DNA of 64,000 nucleotides from Roseomonas sp. (GTDB lineage Bacteria; Pseudomonadota; Alphaproteobacteria; Acetobacterales; Acetobacteraceae): contig JADCFQ010000012.1 of NCBI GenBank assembly GCA_020249435.1, positions 62,001 through 126,000 of the forward strand, written 5' to 3'. Within the stretch, counting starts at the first letter, position 1. The number at the start of each line of letters is the position of its first letter. Under the pieces are notes generated by a model that was not told where the DNA came from, searched no databases, and saw only the letters and a program-made list of their open reading frames with translations. Below are positions 4,746 to 47,683 of this stretch, piece by piece. A program made the translations under genes and the position numbers.

Positions 4746-5696
4746 ATGACCGATGATTTTAGCGCGACGGGCTTGGATTTCACTCTGCCCGTGGCGACGC
4801 GTGGTTATCGCTGGTGGTATCTGGATGCGCTTTCCGATGATGGTGCGCATGGCATTACCATTATCGCCTTTCTGGGTACGGTGTTTTCCCCCTGGTATGC
4901 TTTTGCGCGGCGTGGTGGCGGCGGCGATCCGCTGAACCATTGCTGCATGCATGTGGCACTTTACGGCAAGCCGGCGCGTTGGGCGATGACGGATCGCCCA
5001 CGAGTTGGGCTCAATCGTGGTGCTGATTTTCTGCAAATCGGGCCAAGCGCCATGCGCTGGGATGGTAGCAAGCTGGTGGTTGATCTTGCGGAAGTCACCG
5101 CCCCGGTTCCAGGCAAGTTGCGCGGGCGCGTGACGCTTTATCCAGAGGCACTATCGCATCGGGCCTTTCGCTTGGATGGCGCGGGGCGGCATCATTGGCA
5201 GCCGATTGCACCGCGTTCGCGCGTGGAAGTTGCTTTCGACAATCCCGCGCTGCGCTGGTCCGGCTTTTCGTATTTCGACACCAATACGGGCATCGCGCCG
5301 CTGGAAGAGGATTTCCTTTTCTGGGATTGGTGCCGCGCGCCGATGCCGGAAGCTACCGCGATTTTGTATAATGCATCGCGCCGCGATGGATCGGCGCAAT
5401 CACTCGCGCTGCAGGTGAACCGCGCCGGTGAAGTCGCCGATATGCCGATCCCCCCACAGGCCATGATGCCGCCTGGGCTTTGGCGCGTCGCGCGTCAAAC
5501 TCGGTCTGAGGATGGCAAGGCAGAGCTGGTACGCGCCTTGGTGGATGCGCCCTTTTATACGCGATCCGAAATTCGCACGCGGCTTTTGGGGCAGAATGCC
5601 ATTGCGGTGCATGAAAGCCTGGCCTTGAACCGGTTTGATAATCTGGCGGTGCAGGCGCTGATGCTGCCCTTCAGGGTGCCGCGCGCACGCGGCTAA
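4746..5696 (+). CDS. crtC: Carotenoid 1,2-hydratase CrtC
   Basis: 316-aa CrtC (hydroxyneurosporene synthase family), which adds water to the C1,2 double bond of acyclic carotenoids such as lycopene, producing the 1-hydroxy group needed for spirilloxanthin-type pigments. Typical features are the aromatic GYRWWYLDALSDDG segment, FSPWY, and DPLNHCCMHVALYG. A second conserved block, YFDTNTGIAPLEEDFLFWDW, follows. Length fits proteobacterial CrtC. It is transcribed alone from the left edge of the cluster; its stop overlaps the convergent ATP-grasp stop by 4 nt. No PpsR-type site was found in its 88-nt upstream gap. Confidence 0.95.
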   Translation: MTDDFSATGLDFTLPVATRGYRWWYLDALSDDGAHGITIIAFLGTVFSPWYAFARRGGGGDPLNHCCMHVALYGKPARWAMTDRPRVGLNRGADFLQIGPSAMRWDGSKLVVDLAEVTAPVPGKLRGRVTLYPEALSHRAFRLDGAGRHHWQPIAPRSRVEVAFDNPALRWSGFSYFDTNTGIAPLEEDFLFWDWCRAPMPEATAILYNASRRDGSAQSLALQVNRAGEVADMPIPPQAMMPPGLWRVARQTRSEDGKAELVRALVDAPFYTRSEIRTRLLGQNAIAVHESLALNRFDNLAVQALMLPFRVPRARG

Positions 5697-6817
5697 TCAT
5701 ACCAGCCGACATCAAGCGTCGCGACTTCCCCAAAGGTCGCGCCGCGCGCCATGGCCATGCGGATGATGGGCCATGAAGTCGCAGTCATGGTGAGGAAAGG
5801 CATGGGATCGCGCCTGTCCCAGGTGACATCGCGCGTTGAGAACAATTGGCGTAAATTCTCGCGAAATGGGCCGCGCCGGAATAATGACATTTGGGTTTCC
5901 GTCAGCGCGGAATAGAATTGCTGCAGGCGCGCCTCAGGCCGATAGCGCGGGATGAACCCAGGTTCCAGCACGGCGCGCGCAATATCGGCGCGTTCCCAGA
6001 AATGCAAACCGCTTGTCGTGCGCGGATTGCATTCAATGCCCCAAGGTTGGCCGGCCTCATCCACCATAATGTCGAAGGCAATGAAGCCGGTCCAATTCGC
6101 TGCGGCGATGAAACGCGTGATCCAATCGGCAATCGCGGGGTGTTCCACCCGTTCAAACGCGACCGCGACCGAGCCCGATTTCTGCGCCGCGCGGTAGATG
6201 ACGGTGGAGGCAACGCGCCCCTCATGTGCGATGGAACAGGAGCTATATTCCGCGCCGATCACGCAGCGCTGCACAATCGTGGGGATGGCTGGATCAGGCG
6301 CGGGCAAGGTGGCCCCGGCGGGCAGAAGGCGCACACCACGACCGGAACAGGAATGCACTGGCTTGATCACCACCGGGCCGGATTGCACGAGTGCCTCAGC
6401 AGCAGGATCGCCAAGCGCATGCGTTTCCGGCACTGCCAAACCCCAAGCGGTGGCCTGTTGCGCGAAGCCATGCTTGTTGTGCAGGCGGAGCAAAATCCCG
6501 GGCGGCATGGTGAAAAGCCGCGTGCTGGCGGGCAGGTTCTCGCACAAAAAAGCAACATGCATGGTTTCTTCCGAAACCGGCACGACAAGATCAATCTTCT
6601 CATCGGCAATGATGCGCCGCAAATCAGCGAGGTATGCCTGCTTGTCTTCCGCCGGTGCCGTCACGCGATGGCTTTGTGCCACCGCGCGTGACGCGCCCGC
6701 CAGATGGCGTTTGAAGGGTTCCGCCACCACCACGCGCCAGCCCAGATCAGCAAAGCCACGCGCCACATCCAGCGCCTTGGGCAGGCGCCCGAGAGTCAGC
6801 AGCAGATTGCCTGTCAT
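5693..6817 (-). CDS. ATP-grasp enzyme coupled to the P450
   Basis: 374-aa protein with an N-terminal pre-ATP-grasp alpha/beta domain (NLLLTLGRLPKALDVARGF), a central ATP-grasp domain with lysine K152 in VVIKPVHSCSGRG, and the metal-binding ECNPR (262-266) followed by TTSGLHFW. These are hallmarks of carboxylate-amine/thiol ligases related to CarB and PurK. The substrate is unknown. The start is the ATG that overlaps the P450 stop as ATGA; an earlier ATG lies inside the P450 gene. It sits between crtC and crtD and is co-transcribed with a P450, so a carotenoid or other pigment substrate is plausible but unproven. Confidence 0.85.
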   Translation of the reverse strand: MTGNLLLTLGRLPKALDVARGFADLGWRVVVAEPFKRHLAGASRAVAQSHRVTAPAEDKQAYLADLRRIIADEKIDLVVPVSEETMHVAFLCENLPASTRLFTMPPGILLRLHNKHGFAQQATAWGLAVPETHALGDPAAEALVQSGPVVIKPVHSCSGRGVRLLPAGATLPAPDPAIPTIVQRCVIGAEYSSCSIAHEGRVASTVIYRAAQKSGSVAVAFERVEHPAIADWITRFIAAANWTGFIAFDIMVDEAGQPWGIECNPRTTSGLHFWERADIARAVLEPGFIPRYRPEARLQQFYSALTETQMSLFRRGPFRENLRQLFSTRDVTWDRRDPMPFLTMTATSWPIIRMAMARGATFGEVATLDVGWYD

Positions 6818-8199
6818 GCCGCGCGGGTGACGCGACACATCACCTGCCGCGCCGGGCGCGTGGTAAGCCGCGCCGCAGGGCGCACATCACCAGGCGCTTC
6901 AATATGGAAATCAAATTGCCGAAACAACCGCGCAATCAGCAGCACCGCTTCCACCTGCGCAAAAGCGGCACCCGCGCAAACCCGCGGACCAATGCCGAAG
7001 GGGATATAGGCGCCGGCAGTCATCTCCGCCTCACGCTCCGGCAGGAAACGGTCAGGGTCGAATAGATGCGGATCGCGCCAATAGGCCTGGTGGCGATGCA
7101 GCACCCAGGGTGCCACCATGATCAGCGCCCCCTTCTTCACCGGATAATCGCCGATGCGTGTTGCTTCATTCGCGACGCGCGGCAGGAAGGTGATGGGCGG
7201 ATAAAGCCGGAGCGTTTCGCGAAACACATTGCGTATGAATGAAAGTTTACGCGTATGTTCAAACAGGATCGGCCCTGGACCTACAATCTCGTCAATTTCC
7301 GCACGCAGCCGTGCAACCAAGGCGGGTTGCGTCGCGAGCAGATAGAACACCCATGTCAAGGCACTGGCGCTGGTTTCATGGCCCGCAAGGAACAGCACGC
7401 CGAGTTGGTCAATCAGTTCCTCACGCGTGAAGGCTTTGCCTTCCACATCATGCGCGGCGATGATGGCGCTCGTGATATCATCAAAACTGGTCGCGCCATC
7501 CCCCAGATGCGTATCGAGCAATTCGCCAAGATGGCTGCGAATGAGGCGGCATGCCTTCAGCACGCTTTCCTTTTGCGGAATACGCTTCCAGGCACGGTCA
7601 AAAATCAGCCGGCGGATTTCAACCTGCGCGACGCTATGTTCGAATTCGGTGAAGGCATCGAAAACCTCATGCGCCACACGCGTTTCCAAGCCTGTTGAAA
7701 ACACGGTGCGGCAGATGATGTCCGCCGTCATGTGACTCATCATCAGGTCGAGCGAAAAGCGCGTGTCATGCGCGGCGTGATCGGCCAAGGTGGCTTCCGC
7801 CGCCGCCGCGCCGGCTTCCATCGCCGGGAAGGCGCGGTTGACGCGCATCATTGTCAAGGCCGGGTCAATCATGGCCCTCTGCCGCCGCCAGGTGGCGCCG
7901 GAAGAGACAAAAATCGAATCGCCAATCAGCGGGTCCAGCGCATGCACCATCAGATCGCTTTTGGGCAGAATGCCCTTGGGGTCTGTCAGCACTTCGCGCA
8001 CCAGATCGGGGCGATTGACGATAATGGTGGACCGGCGCGAAAAGCCAAGCGGCCCGATCGGCATGCGATAAGCCTCAGCCGGCAAGAGCGAAAGCAAATC
8101 GCCATCGCCCCGGATGATGCAGCGCATCAGCGCGATCAGCGCGGGCAAAGGTTCCGACCGCGGCGGCGCAAAGGCACGAAAGGCGGGCACGTGATTCAC
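6814..8199 (-). CDS. Cytochrome P450 in carotenoid gene region
   Basis: 461-aa P450 with all core motifs: I-helix AGHETS (272-277), K-helix ETLR (328-331), a DPDRFLPE segment, and the haem-binding loop FGIGPRVCAG with Cys408 as thiolate ligand. No membrane anchor is evident, as is usual for bacterial P450s. The start is a GTG. It overlaps the downstream ATP-grasp gene as ATGA and is divergent from a membrane protein plus crtD, with two PpsR-like palindromes between them. No ferredoxin or reductase gene is nearby. Carotenoid oxidation is the likeliest role by context; a substrate cannot be read from sequence. Confidence 0.93.
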   Translation of the reverse strand: MNHVPAFRAFAPPRSEPLPALIALMRCIIRGDGDLLSLLPAEAYRMPIGPLGFSRRSTIIVNRPDLVREVLTDPKGILPKSDLMVHALDPLIGDSIFVSSGATWRRQRAMIDPALTMMRVNRAFPAMEAGAAAAEATLADHAAHDTRFSLDLMMSHMTADIICRTVFSTGLETRVAHEVFDAFTEFEHSVAQVEIRRLIFDRAWKRIPQKESVLKACRLIRSHLGELLDTHLGDGATSFDDITSAIIAAHDVEGKAFTREELIDQLGVLFLAGHETSASALTWVFYLLATQPALVARLRAEIDEIVGPGPILFEHTRKLSFIRNVFRETLRLYPPITFLPRVANEATRIGDYPVKKGALIMVAPWVLHRHQAYWRDPHLFDPDRFLPEREAEMTAGAYIPFGIGPRVCAGAAFAQVEAVLLIARLFRQFDFHIEAPGDVRPAARLTTRPARQVMCRVTRAA

Positions 8200-8270: not shown

Positions 8271-8314
8271 TGATTTCCATGCTTTACATTAGTATATGTC
8301 AAGTGCGATTGTCA
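8271..8314. promoter_or_regulatory. Two degenerate PpsR/CrtJ palindromes, 8 nt apart
   Basis: TGA-N12-ACA (8271-8288) and TGT-N12-TCA (8297-8314) each match five of six arm bases of the PpsR/CrtJ site TGT-N12-ACA. They are separated by exactly 8 nt, the spacing also seen before bchC and crtE in this window. The inner bases CAA/TTG of the second site are symmetric as in the perfect sites. They lie in the 137-nt divergent gap between the P450 and the membrane-protein/crtD unit and could control both. Confidence 0.5.
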
Positions 8315-8336: not shown

Positions 8337-9080
8337 ATGGTCCTGTTCCTGTTCCATGCGCTGGTCGCCGCCCATATCGTGACGGGCAGCATCGGCGCCG
8401 TTGCTTTCTGGGTGCCCGTGATCGGGCGCAAGGGCGGCGCCAATCATGCGCGCTGGGGCAAGGTTTTCACCTTCGCGCTGCTGATCACTGGCTGTCTGGC
8501 AATGGTCATGAGTCTGCTGACTCTGGCCGCACCCATCGAGACTCATCCGCATCTGGAAGGCCGTTTTGATGAGGCCTTCATCCGCGGCATTTTCGGCTGG
8601 ATGATGCTGATGACCGGGCTGCTGACGGTGAACCTTGCCTGGTATGGCTGGCTTTCCATTCGCAACAAGCGCCGACATGAATTGAACCGCTCGCGGCTCA
8701 ATCTGTTTTTGCAATATGCGCTGATTCCCGCATCACTGAATTGCGCCTGGCAGGGCTGGATGATTGGCCAACCGCTGATGATCGGCATTTGCATGGTGGG
8801 GCTGGCGACGGCGGCGACAAACCTCTGGTTCATCCTGGCGCGCGAACCGGGGCCGGGTGCCTGGATCAAGGAACATATCAAGGCTTTGGTGGGGGCGGGC
8901 ATTTCCGTCTACACCGCCTTTATGGCGTTTGGGTCGGTCAGGATTTTTCCTGAATTGGCGCTCAATCCCTTCATGTGGACGGTACCGCTGGTGGTGGGCG
9001 TTTCGCTGATCATCTGGCATCGCCGCGTAGTGGATCGGCAATTTGCCGGACGCGGTCGACGTTTGAGTGCTGCAACGTAA
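8337..9080 (+). CDS. Multi-pass membrane protein upstream of crtD
   Basis: 247-aa protein with about six or seven hydrophobic segments. These include FLFHALVAAHIVTGSIGAV at the N-terminus, FGWMMLMTGLLTVNLAW, MIGICMVGLATAATNLWF and a C-terminal LVVGVSLIIWH. The pattern resembles small bacterial DUF2306-like membrane proteins, but I cannot assign a family firmly. A strong GGGGAGG ribosome-binding site precedes the ATG. Its stop lies one base before the chosen crtD start, so the two are probably co-expressed. The divergent gap upstream holds PpsR-like sites. A role linked to carotenoid processing or placement in the membrane is inference. Confidence 0.75.
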   Translation: MVLFLFHALVAAHIVTGSIGAVAFWVPVIGRKGGANHARWGKVFTFALLITGCLAMVMSLLTLAAPIETHPHLEGRFDEAFIRGIFGWMMLMTGLLTVNLAWYGWLSIRNKRRHELNRSRLNLFLQYALIPASLNCAWQGWMIGQPLMIGICMVGLATAATNLWFILAREPGPGAWIKEHIKALVGAGISVYTAFMAFGSVRIFPELALNPFMWTVPLVVGVSLIIWHRRVVDRQFAGRGRRLSAAT

Positions 9081-9081
9081 T

Positions 9082-10611
9082 ATGGCTGCTCTGCGCGTTG
9101 TTGTGATTGGCGCCGGAATGGGCGGCTTGGCAGCAGCCGCTGATCTCGCGCGGCGTGGTGCGGCGGTGACGGTATTGGAACGCGCAGCGGCCCCCGGTGG
9201 CAAGATGCGTGAGGTGATGGTGGATGGCAGCCCGATTGATGGCGGCCCCACGGTCTTCACCATGCGCTGGATTTTTGAGGGTTTGTTTGCGGATGCAGGC
9301 GCCTCTCTGGAAGCCGCGCTGCAATTAGCGAAAGCGGATGTATTGGCGCGGCATGCCTGGCGGGCTGGTGGCAGGCTTGATCTATTCGCGGATATCGGGC
9401 GTTCCGCTGATGCAATCGGCGAATTTGCGGGGTCCGCCGAAGCGCGCGGCTATCGCGCCTTTTGCGCACGCAGCGCTGATATTTTCCGCACGCTGCGGGG
9501 TTCCTTCATTGCTGCCGAACGTCCCTCTCCGCTTGATCTGGTCAAGCGCGTTGGTATCACCAATATCGCGGCGCTGATTCGCACCGCACCGATGAAGACG
9601 CTTTGGGATGCCTTGGGCGAGCATTTTCGTGATCCGCGTTTGCGCCAGCTATTCGGGCGGTATGCGACCTATTGCGGCTGCTCACCCTGGTTGGCGCCGG
9701 CGACGCTGATGTTGGTCGCGCATGTGGAACAGGATGGCGTGTGGTTCGTGAAGGGCGGCATGCGGCGCGTGGCGGATGCAATCCAGCGCTTGGCAGAAGG
9801 CAAGGGTGCTGAGTTTCGCTTTGGTGCTGAGGTCGCGGAGATTCTGACGCGTCAGGGCCGGGCTTGTGGGGTGCGGCTTGCAAATGGTGAGGAACTCGCT
9901 GCCGATGCCGTTGTCTTCAACGGTGATGTGGCTGCGCTGGCGCAGGGGATGCTGGGGCAGGCGCCTCGTGGCGCGGCGGAGGATACACCACGCGCCGCGC
10001 GTTCCCTTTCCGCCGTGACCTGGTGCGTGAAGGCGCCGACCGCAGGCTTTCCGCTGGTGCATCACAATGTGTTCTTCGCTGAGGATTACGCGGCGGAGTT
10101 TGAAGCGATTTTCCGTAGGCGTGATATCACCGCCGCGCCCACGGTCTATATCTGCGCACAGGATCGCGAAGCGGGGCCGGGGCCGGCAGCGGGCACACCA
10201 GAACGGATGCTTGTGCTGATCAATGCGCCACCCGATGGTGATCGGCGTGGCTATTCTCTCGATGAAATAACAGAACTTGGCGAACGAGGCTTCGGTTTGC
10301 TGAAAGCTTGCGGCTTGGACGTGGCACGCGACGCAGGCGCGGAATTCGTCACCACGCCTGAAGGTTTCGCGCGGCTTTTTCCGGGTTCGGGCGGCGCGCT
10401 CTATGGCCGCGCGAGCCACGGCACCACCGGCACTTTCGCGCGCCCTGGCGCGGTCACGCATTTGCAAGGGCTTTATCTGGCCGGAGGTTCGGTGCATCCC
10501 GGCCCCGGCATTCCCATGGCAGCGATGTCCGGCCGTATTGCCGCGGCGCGGCTTTTGGAAGATTGGGCCGGTGCGCGCGGCAGCATACGGATTGGGGCGG
10601 CGCGCGCTTAA
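9082..10611 (+). CDS. crtD: 1-Hydroxycarotenoid 3,4-desaturase CrtD
   Basis: 509-aa FAD-dependent carotenoid desaturase. The N-terminus has the dinucleotide-binding motif VIGAGMGGLAAAADLARRG, followed by GGKMRE and PIDGGPTVFTM; the C-terminus has the flavin-binding GLYLAGGSVHPGPGIPMAAMSG. The last block, with HPGPGIPMA rather than HPGAGVPG, and the GPTVFTM segment distinguish CrtD from CrtI. It introduces the 3,4 double bond into hydroxylated or methoxylated acyclic carotenoids on the way to spirilloxanthin. The ATG at 9082 starts right after the upstream stop. The end overlaps the convergent crtI stop by 4 nt. Confidence 0.93.
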   Translation: MAALRVVVIGAGMGGLAAAADLARRGAAVTVLERAAAPGGKMREVMVDGSPIDGGPTVFTMRWIFEGLFADAGASLEAALQLAKADVLARHAWRAGGRLDLFADIGRSADAIGEFAGSAEARGYRAFCARSADIFRTLRGSFIAAERPSPLDLVKRVGITNIAALIRTAPMKTLWDALGEHFRDPRLRQLFGRYATYCGCSPWLAPATLMLVAHVEQDGVWFVKGGMRRVADAIQRLAEGKGAEFRFGAEVAEILTRQGRACGVRLANGEELAADAVVFNGDVAALAQGMLGQAPRGAAEDTPRAARSLSAVTWCVKAPTAGFPLVHHNVFFAEDYAAEFEAIFRRRDITAAPTVYICAQDREAGPGPAAGTPERMLVLINAPPDGDRRGYSLDEITELGERGFGLLKACGLDVARDAGAEFVTTPEGFARLFPGSGGALYGRASHGTTGTFARPGAVTHLQGLYLAGGSVHPGPGIPMAAMSGRIAAARLLEDWAGARGSIRIGAARA

Positions 10612-12116
10612 TGGCGCTTCAGCGTGTCGCCATGCGGCACAAGCTGATCAAGCACCTTGGCGGAAGAAATCACGCCCGGCACGCCAGCGCCAGGATGTGT
10701 GCCGGCGCCGACCAGATAAAGCCCTTTCACTTCTTCGCTGACATTATGTGGGCGGAACCAGGCGCTTTGGAAAAGCTGCGGCTCCAACGCAAAGGCCGCG
10801 CCATTCACCGATAGCAACCGATCCTGAAAATCCTGCGGCGTGATCATGCGGGATGTGGCCAGCGCCTCGCCAAGACCGGGCAACACGGTTTCTTCCAGGC
10901 GTTTTTCAATCGCCTGACGATAGGGTTCCGCATGCTTGGCCCAATCCACCTTGCTGCCAAGATGCGGCACGGGCGCCAGCACGTAGAAGGCATCGCAGCC
11001 AGGCGGGGCAAGTGATGCATCCGTCGCAGTCGGGCGATGCAGATAAAGGCTGAAATCTTCGGCCAAGTGCTTCCGCGTGAAAATATCGTGCAGCAATTCC
11101 TGATAGCGTGGTCCGAGCACCATGGTGTGGTGATAAATATCATCATACCGGCGCTTGGTACCGAAATACCAAACAAAAAGGCTCATGGAATAACGCGCGC
11201 GGGCGATCTTGCGATCAGTCCAACGCCGTCGCGGATGATCCTGCAATAGCTTGCTGTAAGTCCAGGCGACGTCCGCATTGGAAACCACGATATCGGCGGC
11301 AAGCCTTTCGCCATCGGCAAATTCAACGCCAGTTGCGCGGCCGCCTTCAGTGGTGATGCGCTTCACTTCGGCATTATAGCGAATGCTACCACCAAGCCTT
11401 GTGGCCAAATCGAGAATACCCTGCACCAGCGCACCCATGCCGCCCATGGCGTAATGCACGCCATGCAGTCGTTCCAGATGGGCGATCAAGCAATAATAGG
11501 CCGTGGTGGTCATCGGATTCCCGCCAATCAGCAGCGGGTGGAAACTGAAGGCAACGCGTAGCTTGTCGCTGGTGAAGTAATCGCAGACGCGGCTATAGAC
11601 GGTGCGATAGCCCTGCAAGCGAATCAAATCCGGCGCGGCACCAAGCAATGACCCAAGGCGATGGAAGGGCTTATCCGCCAATTCGGCAAAGGCCACCCGA
11701 AAAATACGCTCACTTTCCAGAATGAAGCGCTCAAACCCGGCACTGTCTTGCGGTGCGATACGAGCGACCTCGGCGCGCGTGACATCAAGATCGGCGGAAC
11801 ACCGCATGACGTTGCCATCATCGAAGCGGATCAGGTAGAAGGGATCCATCGCGCGCAGATCAATATCCTGCGCAAGTTTACGGCCAGCGAGCGACCAGAG
11901 CTCTTCCAACAAATAGGGCGCTGTGATGATGGTGGGGCCGGCATCGAAGGTAAAGCCATCCTGCCGAAAGACATAAGCACGCCCACCTGCGGCATCGAGT
12001 TTTTCAAGGATCGTCACACGCCAACCACGTGCGCCAAGCCGCACCGCCGCAGCCAAGCCACCAAAGCCGGAGCCGATCACAATCGCATGCGGGCGTGGGT
12101 CTGCTGCTGTGTTCAT
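10608..12116 (-). CDS. crtI: Phytoene desaturase CrtI
   Basis: 502-aa FAD-dependent phytoene desaturase that converts phytoene to neurosporene or lycopene in several steps. It begins with the FAD-binding motif VIGSGFGGLAAAVRLGARG and AGGRAYVF. It ends with the bacterial phytoene-dehydrogenase signature GLYLVGAGTHPGAGVPGVI. Length is typical. It stands alone on the minus strand downstream of pufC but behind a terminator, so it needs its own promoter in the 55-nt gap (12117-12171), where I saw no PpsR-type palindrome. crtB is far away, at the end of the bch operon; the split of crtI from crtB is notable. Confidence 0.95.
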   Translation of the reverse strand: MNTAADPRPHAIVIGSGFGGLAAAVRLGARGWRVTILEKLDAAGGRAYVFRQDGFTFDAGPTIITAPYLLEELWSLAGRKLAQDIDLRAMDPFYLIRFDDGNVMRCSADLDVTRAEVARIAPQDSAGFERFILESERIFRVAFAELADKPFHRLGSLLGAAPDLIRLQGYRTVYSRVCDYFTSDKLRVAFSFHPLLIGGNPMTTTAYYCLIAHLERLHGVHYAMGGMGALVQGILDLATRLGGSIRYNAEVKRITTEGGRATGVEFADGERLAADIVVSNADVAWTYSKLLQDHPRRRWTDRKIARARYSMSLFVWYFGTKRRYDDIYHHTMVLGPRYQELLHDIFTRKHLAEDFSLYLHRPTATDASLAPPGCDAFYVLAPVPHLGSKVDWAKHAEPYRQAIEKRLEETVLPGLGEALATSRMITPQDFQDRLLSVNGAAFALEPQLFQSAWFRPHNVSEEVKGLYLVGAGTHPGAGVPGVISSAKVLDQLVPHGDTLKRH

Positions 12117-15279: not shown

Positions 15280-15459
15280 TCAACCACCCAGCTTCGCGCC
15301 AGGGGTGAATGTCGGTGACGTTGCGCACCAACCAAGATGATCGCAGTAGCGCGGCGAGCTCAGAACAGCGAAGTGAATCACTGCTGCGATCGCCACCACA
15401 CCTGCCGCGCCGAGGAACCCGACACGACGAGCATCAATCACCATCCACATTTTATGCAT
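15280..15459 (-). CDS. pufA: Light-harvesting complex 1 alpha subunit
   Basis: 59-aa single-pass antenna polypeptide. MHKMWMVIDARRVGF is the classic cytoplasmic start of LH1 alpha; AAGGAG lies about 10 nt upstream, whereas an ATG three codons earlier sits against the Shine-Dalgarno. The transmembrane helix contains His29 in AVIHFAVLSS, the axial bacteriochlorophyll a ligand. The periplasmic tail RYCDHLGWCATS is unusual: it holds Cys39 and Cys45, which I do not expect in this family. It pairs with PufB to form the ring around the reaction centre. Confidence 0.93.
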   Translation of the reverse strand: MHKMWMVIDARRVGFLGAAGVVAIAAVIHFAVLSSPRYCDHLGWCATSPTFTPGAKLGG

Positions 15460-15521
15460 ATCGAACATTCTCCTTTCTTTCGCTCCAGATTTCGGGAAAT
15501 TCCGTCAACCCGGAACATCCT

Positions 15522-15698
15522 TCAGAAGAAGCGCCAGTCGGGCGGAACCACTTGTCCGGTATAGACAAGCGGCCGCCACAACCACACGAGGATATGCGCG
15601 CCCATGGAAGCGAAAACGGAGAAAGCCCATCCCTGGACCACCAAGTTGTGGACTTCCTTCGCCTGAGCTTCCGTCAGGCGCGTTCTAGTGTCGGCCAT
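15522..15698 (-). CDS. pufB: Light-harvesting complex 1 beta subunit
   Basis: 58-aa single-pass antenna polypeptide. It has the conserved beta signature EAQAKEVHNLVVQGW on the cytoplasmic side and the membrane helix FASMGAHILVWLWRP, whose histidine binds bacteriochlorophyll a. The start is the ATG after GGAGG with 7-nt spacing. pufA follows after about 60 nt. It is the first gene of the puf group and comes about 160 nt after bchZ, so both read-through from bchCXYZ and a local promoter are possible. Confidence 0.95.
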   Translation of the reverse strand: MADTRTRLTEAQAKEVHNLVVQGWAFSVFASMGAHILVWLWRPLVYTGQVVPPDWRFF

Positions 15699-20794: not shown

Positions 20795-20838
20795 TGTAAC
20801 TCTAATGTGACGCGCGTAACTGTCAAGTTAAAATGACA
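20795..20838 (-). promoter_or_regulatory. Tandem PpsR/CrtJ operator of bchC
   Basis: TGT-N12-ACA (20821-20838, perfect, inner arms CAA/TTG-like) and TGT-N12-ACG (20795-20812, five of six arm bases) are separated by exactly 8 nt. This is the arrangement described for CrtJ/PpsR at bchC in Rhodobacter, where two tetramers' worth of helix-turn-helix units bind cooperatively. Read toward bchC, TTGACA (the -35) falls in the upstream palindrome and a weak -10 in the downstream one, so binding would block the polymerase. Confidence 0.8.
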
Positions 20839-22926: not shown

Positions 22927-22970
22927 TGTATGTTGTATTAGACGGTTTTCATTGTCGTGTTTTCTTGACA
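22927..22970 (-). promoter_or_regulatory. Tandem PpsR/CrtJ operator of crtE
   Basis: TGT-N12-ACA (22953-22970, perfect) and TGT-N12-ACG (22927-22944, five of six) are separated by 8 nt. This is the same order and spacing as at bchC, with the degenerate member nearer the gene. The operator occupies the short gap between the crtB stop (22987) and the crtE start. Confidence 0.78.
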
Positions 22971-46261: not shown

Positions 46262-47683
46262 GTGAAAACCTTTCTGGCCCCCCGCAAATCGCTCGGAGAT
46301 TTGGATGCTGATGCTGCGGCCTCATTGGTCTCGGCGGCGGCGGATATGGCGCTGGTGGTGGATGACCAGGGTGTCATTCGCGATATTGCCTTCAGTAATC
46401 AGGAACTTTCGAAAACGCTTGGCGGGCATCAGGCCTGGCTTGGGCGGCCCTGGGCAGAGACCGTCACCACGGAAAGCCGCCCCAAGGTTGAAGCACTGTT
46501 GAGCGGCGCGCCGGCGGAATCGAAATGGCGCAACATCAATCAGGTCGCCGAAGGTGGCGAAGCGGTACCGCTGCTTTTCGCTGCCGTGCCCTTGCAACGC
46601 GGCAATCGGCGCGTGGTGTTTGGCCGCGATTTGAGTGCACAATCACGCCTGCAACAAAGATTGCTGGAAACCCAGCAATCCATGGAACGCGATTACGCGA
46701 AGCTGCGCCAGGCGGAGACTCGTTATCGGCTGCTGTTCCAGCTTTCCGCTGATGCAACGCTGATCATTGATGGCTCGACGGGGCGCGTGACGGAAGCCAA
46801 TCCCGCTGCCGAGCAGCTTTTTGGCCGCCAGTCTCGCCGCGTTATTGGTCGGCCCTTGATGGATGCCTTCGCGCCGGAAAGCCGTCAGGCGGTGCAATCC
46901 TTGCTTGCTTCCGTGCGCATCGCGGGCCGCGGTGATGAGGTTGGCGCGCAGCTTGCCGATACGGGGCGCGAGGTCACCATCGCCGCCACCAGCTTCCGAC
47001 AGGATGGCGCATCGGTGCTTTTGGTTCGGCTTTCACTCGCGGGCGGCGAACAGCCGGCGGGGCTGTCACCGGCCAAGGCGCAAATGCTGAAAGTGGCAGA
47101 AAATCTGCCCGATGCCTTTGTGATCACGGATCAGAATGGCGTGGTGATGTCCGCCAATGGCGCCTTTCTGGACCTTGCCGAGCTTGGGTCGGAAGAACAG
47201 GTGCGCGGCGAGTCGCTGGAACGCTGGCTCGGTGGCCAGGGCATCGAAATTGAAGTGCTGCTCTCCAATTTGCGCAATCGCGGTGCGGTCAGGCTTTATA
47301 CCACCACGCTGCGCGGTGCGATGGGTGCGCGGGTTGAGGTGGAAATCTCCGCCGTCACCGTCACGCATGGTGGGCAGGAAGTTTTCGGCTTTTCGATGCG
47401 CGATATTGGCGCGCGCGTGGCGGAACCGCGCCAGACTGGCGCGCATGCCACGCGGTCCGTTGAACAGCTTACGGAATTGATCGGGCGCGTGCCGCTGAAA
47501 GACCTGGTGCGCGATGCGACGGATGCGATTGAACGGCTGTGCATCGAAGCCGCCTTGCAGCTTTCCGGCGATAATCGCGCATCGGCGGCGGAAATGCTCG
47601 GGCTCAGTCGGCAGAGCCTTTATGTGAAACTGCACCGCTACGGCCTTGGTGATCTGGGCGCCGATAGCGGTGAGCAGGGATAA
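46262..47683 (+). CDS. ppsR: Photosynthesis gene repressor PpsR/CrtJ
   Basis: 473-aa regulator. It has an N-terminal domain, PAS domains (about 25-120, 155-265 with YRLLFQLSADATLIIDGSTG, and 275-390 with VAENLPDAFVITDQNG), a Q-linker and a C-terminal Fis-type helix-turn-helix (NRASAAEMLGLSRQSLYVKLHRYGLG). It binds TGT-N12-ACA and represses bch, crt and puc genes under high oxygen. The start is a GTG. Only one cysteine exists, Cys427 next to the helix-turn-helix; the second cysteine of the Rhodobacter redox pair is missing. Confidence 0.95.
   Translation: MKTFLAPRKSLGDLDADAAASLVSAAADMALVVDDQGVIRDIAFSNQELSKTLGGHQAWLGRPWAETVTTESRPKVEALLSGAPAESKWRNINQVAEGGEAVPLLFAAVPLQRGNRRVVFGRDLSAQSRLQQRLLETQQSMERDYAKLRQAETRYRLLFQLSADATLIIDGSTGRVTEANPAAEQLFGRQSRRVIGRPLMDAFAPESRQAVQSLLASVRIAGRGDEVGAQLADTGREVTIAATSFRQDGASVLLVRLSLAGGEQPAGLSPAKAQMLKVAENLPDAFVITDQNGVVMSANGAFLDLAELGSEEQVRGESLERWLGGQGIEIEVLLSNLRNRGAVRLYTTTLRGAMGARVEVEISAVTVTHGGQEVFGFSMRDIGARVAEPRQTGAHATRSVEQLTELIGRVPLKDLVRDATDAIERLCIEAALQLSGDNRASAAEMLGLSRQSLYVKLHRYGLGDLGADSGEQG

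Follow-up and report, generated by a model that had tools for sequence, protein, structure and literature searches.

A cytochrome P450, an ATP-grasp ligase and a membrane protein form a conserved module beside the carotenoid genes of anoxygenic phototrophs: a candidate carotenoid-tailoring cassette

A 64,000-nucleotide stretch of a Roseomonas sp. genome (assembly GCA_020249435.1, contig JADCFQ010000012.1, positions 62,001 to 126,000), hereafter the window, is part of a photosynthesis gene cluster and contains genes for a cytochrome P450, an ATP-grasp ligase and a divergent membrane protein among its carotenoid genes. We propose, with a probability of about 0.5, that these three genes are a carotenoid-tailoring cassette of anoxygenic phototrophs, inherited mostly with a particular CrtI, in which oxidation by the P450 is followed by an amide-type conjugation. 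A carotenoid role of the module, tied to photosynthesis, is very probable. A first-pass annotation of this DNA had described the P450 and the ligase as a pair; it left out the membrane protein, the co-travelling CrtI and a PpsR-like site.

The ATP-grasp gene (5693..6817) and the P450 gene (6814..8199) were located on the − strand between crtC (4746..5696) and crtD (9067..10611), both on the + strand, as the first-pass annotation had placed them. The P450 matched PF00067 with 250.3 bits (cut-off 22.8), as did all 44 rows of its alignment (A4). It contained AGHETS at residues 272–277, the ExxR motif as ETLR at 328–331 and the heme ligand Cys408, in agreement with the earlier description, and A272–T276, E328, R331 and C408 were invariant in the 44 sequences. 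The ligase matched PF02655 with 26.7 bits (cut-off 23.2), and K159 and E269-C-N-P-R273 were invariant in 67 sequences (alignment A2). We take K159, E269 and N271 to be the ATP-binding Lys and the Mg-binding Glu and Asn. K159 is numbered from a GTG at 6838 (open reading frame (ORF) 5693–6838) and corresponds to K152 when counted from the ATG at 6817. To judge from the sequences, this ATG is the likelier start, because homologues show a Met near there and because start and P450 stop then share a 4-bp ATGA (6814..6817, − strand). With this start, the translational coupling and K152 noted in the first pass are correct.

The third member (8337..9080, + strand) was located between the P450 gene, from which it diverges, and crtD, with which it overlaps by 14 bp. 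The AlphaFold2 (AF2) model of its product had a predicted local distance difference test score (pLDDT) of 93.3 and seven long helices, and sequence and model suggest a location in the membrane. The protein scored 11.3 bits (E 0.4) against PF10067 (DUF2306), below the cut-off of 31.6 bits. This model matched 27 of the 44 aligned membrane-protein homologues at E up to 0.1, with a best value of 4.7e-5.

Module loci were collected by searching public genome contigs with the ATP-grasp profile alone, so the neighbouring genes had no part in the selection; 80 of the 115 ATP-grasp relatives found were kept, and taxa were taken from the titles of the records. The loci were from Acetobacteraceae/Roseomonadaceae, Sphingomonadales, Beijerinckiaceae, Hyphomicrobium, Hyphomonadaceae and other Alphaproteobacteria, and from Betaproteobacteria, Halieaceae, Granulosicoccaceae and two Myxococcaceae metagenome-assembled genomes (MAGs). 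With a threshold of at least 90 bits, the P450 was present in 77 loci, the membrane protein in 68, crtD in 59, crtI in 54 and crtC in 45. The ATP-grasp and P450 genes were no more than 400 bp apart in all 77 loci holding both, on one strand in 70 and on opposite strands in seven. The P450 and membrane-protein genes were equally close in 65 of 68 loci and within 1.2 kb in the remaining three. In the 12 loci without a P450 or a membrane protein, the ATP-grasp gene was at most 1.5 kb from the end of the locus, which was the end of the contig, and no true absence of either gene was seen among the 80 loci. The adjacency of the module survives rearrangement of the surrounding cluster: most Acetobacteraceae loci had the order crtI-crtD-membrane protein-P450-ATP-grasp-crtC, and Beijerinckiaceae loci had crtI-membrane protein-P450-ATP-grasp-crtB-crtC-crtD. 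When unassigned ORFs of at least 100 amino acids from the 80 loci were clustered, the largest family was found in 14 loci; families in 6 to 14 loci were mostly confined to a single lineage, and some resembled reverse-strand readings.

In 72 of the 80 loci, the module had a crt gene no more than 2.5 kb away. The gene flanking the module within this distance differed, with crtD on 43 flanking sides, crtC on 30, crtI on 20, crtB on 14, and crtF, pufM and one unnamed gene on one each. Six of the eight loci without a nearby crt gene were at contig edges. Six loci (L061, L065, L067, L070, L076, L084) had two crtD-like copies, one beside the membrane protein (66–73% identical to that of the window) and a divergent one nearer crtC (39–53%). 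Only a divergent crtD (51%) was visible in L077, where the other side was cut off.

The module was also linked to photosynthesis. Fourteen of the 80 loci formed the near-identical clade of the window. A pufL or pufM gene was in view in 23 loci, and 16 of these (with both pufL and pufM) were outside the clade. For the remaining 50 loci, the reaction-centre family PF00124 was found in 44 of the 49 genomes searched (L042 was left out of this search). A sample of 249 genomes of the family contained 21 with the module (module-type ATP-grasp at E up to 1e-80), 80 with a reaction centre (above the model cut-off) and 20 with both (Fisher p 3.5e-10, a guide only, since the genomes are related). The other 228 genomes included 60 with a reaction centre and without the module. 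A strong ATP-grasp match was present in 23, a reaction centre in 28 and both in 21 of 35 genomes of the window's genus. Seven of these genomes (G002, G008, G011, G017, G020, G021, G022) had a reaction centre without a strong ATP-grasp match, although G008 and G022 keep the module P450 (95–96%) at a contig edge, and five (G001, G003, G013, G015, G032) had neither. In a class-level sample of 385 genomes, 26 had a reaction centre, and the module type was found only in the window's own genome. The carriers of the module are thus a subset of the phototrophs with a reaction centre, and judging from their taxa they are probably aerobic. The first-pass annotation had made travel with carotenoid or photosynthesis genes in other genomes one point on which its idea would stand or fall, and on this point it stood: 72 of 80 loci had a crt gene nearby, and 20 of the 21 module genomes in the family sample had a reaction centre.

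Of the carotenoid genes, crtI followed the module most closely. The window's crtI (phytoene desaturase, 10608..12116, − strand) matched TIGR02734 with 619.7 bits (cut-off 238.1). In hand-chosen groups, the CrtI of eight Beijerinckiaceae/Hyphomicrobiales module loci was 71.3% identical to that of the window, whereas that of three module-free genomes of the window's own genus (G011, G020, G021) was 61.9%. These three genomes had a plain crtE-crtD-crtC-crtB-crtI cluster with crtF, and the module genes had no match in the stretches taken from them. Twelve other genes (crtB, crtC, crtD, crtE, crtF, bchC, bchI, bchX, bchY, bchZ and two unnamed) showed the reverse, with the same-genus module-free genomes nearer to the window than the eight loci, by a narrow margin for bchC and on a single value for bchI. 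The crtD of four Sphingomonadales module loci was 64.3% identical to the window's, compared with 56.1% within the genus. A CrtI tree was built from 43 module and 33 module-free rows, the latter being the 30 hits most like the window's CrtI plus three duplicates. Of the 50 genomes searched for these hits, all but G493 and G561 gave one, which made a pool of 48. The module label changed five times over this tree, compared with 25 times after shuffling; nine of ten near-identical module rows had been dropped and bootstrap values had not settled. One genome counted as module-free, G544, may in fact be a broken carrier of the module: its CrtI, at 74%, is partial and starts at base 3 of the contig. 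In most lineages the moving unit seems, from these sequence comparisons, to consist of crtI and the trio, in some cases together with crtD. If tailoring genes and a desaturase act on the same carotenoid, the desaturase is expected to follow them.

Several observations weigh against the proposal. The module-linked CrtI of Hyphomonadaceae and Halieaceae was 58.8–63.0% identical to the window's (n = 3), no nearer than module-free CrtI, and one module locus (L056) had a distant CrtI (43.7%). On the CrtI tree, L056, L089 and L105 (module) and L123 and L143 (module-free) were placed on the wrong side. Two loci, L094 and L104, were in full view and yet had no crt gene within 2.5 kb. The nearest named gene in L104 was bchI, 2.6 kb away. 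L094 (titled Granulosicoccaceae) had the trio alone in a locus of 21 kb without a match to the window's crt, bch or puf genes; its genome (G137) has a reaction centre. No reaction centre was found in five of the 49 genomes mentioned above (L055, L080, L081, L084, L100), all titled as MAGs, nor in the module carrier G583 of the family sample, whose assembly of about 830 contigs is 80% complete. Within the genus, G025 (100% complete, 6% contamination) and G027 (77%) had the module and no reaction centre. An assembly gap is possible for G025: in its module contig, represented by L029, pufC is the last gene before the contig end. Furthermore, none of the genes conserved beside the module in the 80 loci was a redox partner, an aldehyde dehydrogenase or an amino-acid enzyme.

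The gap between the divergent P450 and membrane-protein genes contains TGTCA-N8-TGTCA (8297..8314, + strand), which differs by one mismatch from the palindrome TGTCA-N8-TGACA, presumably the PpsR/CrtJ operator. With up to one mismatch, this palindrome was found in 25 of 55 such gaps, whereas 0.16 were expected from dinucleotide shuffles and 0.0 were found in P450 coding sequence of equal length. The looser TGT-N12-ACA was found in 8 of 55 gaps, compared with 0.9 in shuffled and 0.07 in coding sequence. The 55 gaps exclude two same-strand loci and loci with a membrane protein more than 93% identical to that of the window, and related loci among them are not independent. Over the whole window there were six PpsR-like palindromes (0.75 expected), the other five at 20821, 22953, 44951, 45138 and 52567; the exact TGT-N12-ACA alone was not enriched in the window (6 versus 4.7). 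A ppsR gene was located at 46262–47683 (TIGR02040, 468.7 bits, cut-off 275.4). The palindrome at 20821 was between bchC and the crtF-like gene, and that at 22953 was at the start of the crtE-like gene.

With regard to the spirilloxanthin pathway of purple bacteria, the window contained crtI and crtD, the latter (1-hydroxycarotenoid 3,4-desaturase) matching NF045637 with 689.7 bits (cut-off 580), and also crtC-like and crtF-like genes, both below the cut-offs of their models. The crtC (carotenoid 1,2-hydratase), convergent with the ATP-grasp gene, had its best NCBIfam match to NF045922 at 297.1 bits, against a cut-off of 400. The available portion of a 2023 review of the carotenoid genes of purple bacteria (PMC10604819) describes P450s in general terms only and has no occurrence of ATP-grasp. 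It gives the genes responsible for rhodopinal, an established oxidised carotenoid, as unknown, and oxidase candidates with a link to crt genes are for this reason wanted. P450 and ATP-grasp were also absent from the main text of a survey of photosynthesis clusters of aerobic anoxygenic phototrophs (PMC3176799), of a survey of carotenoid genes of Sphingomonadales (PMC5989583) and of a paper on Myxococcota (PMC10576062). Among the papers listed by a literature search, mostly open-access and judged by their titles and the openings of their abstracts, none dealt with a cassette of P450, ATP-grasp ligase and membrane protein. The enzyme families are known; their combination and genomic place appear to be new.

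The solved chain nearest to the P450 was LUT5 (LUTEIN DEFICIENT 5), with E 7.5e-52 for the single sequence and 1.2e-70 for the profile; the profile also matched carotene epsilon-monooxygenase (6l8h) at 3.9e-50. The comparison covered solved chains, of which 443 sequences matched with LUT5 at the top, at an identity judged by eye to be below 40%. The CYP97 family name is given to closest relatives sharing at least about 40% identity. We take LUT5 to be the plant CYP97A and the epsilon-monooxygenase to be CYP97C, both carotene ring hydroxylases. CYP97 enzymes, LUT5 among them, hydroxylate the rings of cyclic carotenoids in chloroplasts, whereas the window P450 is located among genes for acyclic carotenoids in bacterial hosts. 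This difference counts against the proposal as well, and the resemblance may be no more than a consequence of P450 phylogeny.

All 67 rows of alignment A2 matched NCBIfam NF005315 (PRK06849, "hypothetical protein"); the window's ligase scored 247.6 bits, below the equivalog cut-off of 406. Its structural model matched PurK, 2pn1, the L-amino-acid ligase 3vot and others in fold, and identity to the solved enzymes listed was 12–19%. The Pfam match above cut-off and the ATP-grasp fold place the protein among the ATP-grasp ligases. A search of the class sample with A2 gave a match in six genomes (E up to 1e-20). Five of these (G211, G354, G417, G426, G432) had an ATP-grasp protein 23–32% identical, which was used as an outgroup, and the 19–20 kb around it contained no match (E up to 1e-6) to the window's P450, membrane protein or crt, bch and puf genes. 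Eleven plasmid records matching at 27–37% identity were likewise used as an outgroup. Two plasmids (NZ_CP062975.1, NZ_CP155076.1) carried 30% identical relatives, the match itself touching features annotated as beta-ketoacyl-ACP synthase III or as an F390-synthetase-related protein; this hints at a wider family in small-molecule biosynthesis.

The alpha and beta genes of light-harvesting complex 1 (LH1) in the window (15280–15468 and 15522–15698, − strand) were unusual. The alpha protein had SSPRYCDHLGWC after the ligand His, with two Cys and no Trp at +11, and the beta protein had no Trp at +9. Among the reaction-centre genomes of the family sample, a close match to the window's alpha (E up to 1e-20) was found in 17 of 20 with the module and in 0 of 60 without it (Fisher 1.1e-14); six weaker matches were ordinary alphas. 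An ordinary alpha was also present in three module carriers of the family (G538, G548, G610), in 17 carriers from other loci and in L073; no LH1 alpha was recognised in L187, L193 and L195, and L180 and L202 were too short. LH1 as an obligate partner of the module was rejected on the basis of these ordinary alphas, and the unusual LH1 is not part of the cassette. Paracraurococcus ruber (L205) has the unusual LH1. PMC12654162 tabulates a blue-shifted LH1 (854–856 nm) for Roseococcus thiosulfatophilus, P. ruber and Roseomonas CK155, and the unusual proteins may explain this shift.

For the cassette we infer a chemistry of P450 oxidation followed by ATP-dependent conjugation. The P450 would use O2 to oxidise an acyclic carotenoid of the spirilloxanthin series, most simply a methyl group to an alcohol, aldehyde or acid. 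The ATP-grasp enzyme would then activate the resulting carboxylate as an acyl phosphate and couple this to a small amine, for example an amino acid. The membrane protein may present, oxidise or move the membrane-bound substrate, and the product would be a polar, amidated carotenoid that serves in the photosynthetic complexes or close to them. The O2 requirement would suit aerobic phototrophs. We know of no natural carotenoid amidated to a small amine. The proposal in its most specific form, a branch of the spirilloxanthin pathway that needs O2, is controlled by PpsR and leads to small-amine-amidated carotenoids, with a CrtI lineage of its own and a new membrane-protein partner, spread over three proteobacterial classes and Myxococcota, is put forward tentatively and is rather doubtful as a whole.

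The same genomic evidence would also fit a carotenoid acting as the nucleophile, with the P450 only hydroxylating spirilloxanthin or an intermediate and the ligase esterifying the new hydroxyl with an activated small carboxylate such as an amino acid. Among solved P450s the nearest relative hydroxylates carotenes, and ester-forming ATP-grasp enzymes exist, for example D-Ala-D-Lac ligase. Amide formation is nevertheless commoner for this fold, and although the sequences do not separate the two directions, we consider the ester unlikely. It is less probable still that the module works on another photosynthesis-linked lipid (a quinone, a hopanoid or a bacteriochlorophyll side chain) and has its place among crt genes for mere convenience. 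L094 and L104, with the trio away from crt genes and, in L104, bchI as the nearest named gene, would be accounted for in this way, but not the crt neighbours of 72 loci despite differing flanking genes, nor a CrtI that tracks the module when the bch genes do not. We regard it as very improbable that the cassette is a passenger riding with one photosynthesis-cluster lineage and has no pigment role. Its coincidence with the unusual LH1 type in the family resembles a linked haplotype; however, the genes stayed adjacent where clusters were rearranged and in records from different phyla whose crt neighbours differ, the module is not followed by the bch genes or by most of the other crt genes, and the active-site residues are invariant.

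The first-pass annotation had taken the polar carotenoic acids of some aerobic anoxygenic phototrophs as a hint of the module's function. The carotenoids of this kind in Roseococcus have a C30 structure, and polar carotenoids are on record for the genus, according to the title of a reference in PMC12654162. C30 carotenoic acids are acidic, polar compounds, and clusters with HpnCDE, CrtN/CrtP-type, aldehyde dehydrogenase and glycosyltransferase genes are their ordinary kind of source. A cluster of similar make-up was present elsewhere in the window's own genome (contig C29, L122, 33000–48000). It had a single ORF of 621 amino acids in which HpnC and HpnD are joined, together with genes for a glycosyltransferase, an aldehyde dehydrogenase and two enzymes of the CrtI family, and an HpnE-like gene that scored below its cut-off. 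It differs from the module in locus and enzymes and contains no P450. The module-free genomes G011, G020 and G021 also had a tandem pair of CrtI-family genes outside the photosynthesis cluster. C30 carotenoic acids were therefore set aside as the product of the module, an assignment that is hardly credible, and the hint is weakened, since the separate cluster explains these compounds better.

If the proposed tailoring cassette is real, many anoxygenic phototrophs would make a pigment that is not predicted by gene-based pathway maps, among them cultured carriers in Neoroseomonas, Falsiroseomonas, Rubritepida and Paracraurococcus. This pigment would depend on oxygen, the trait that separates aerobic phototrophs from the classical purple bacteria.

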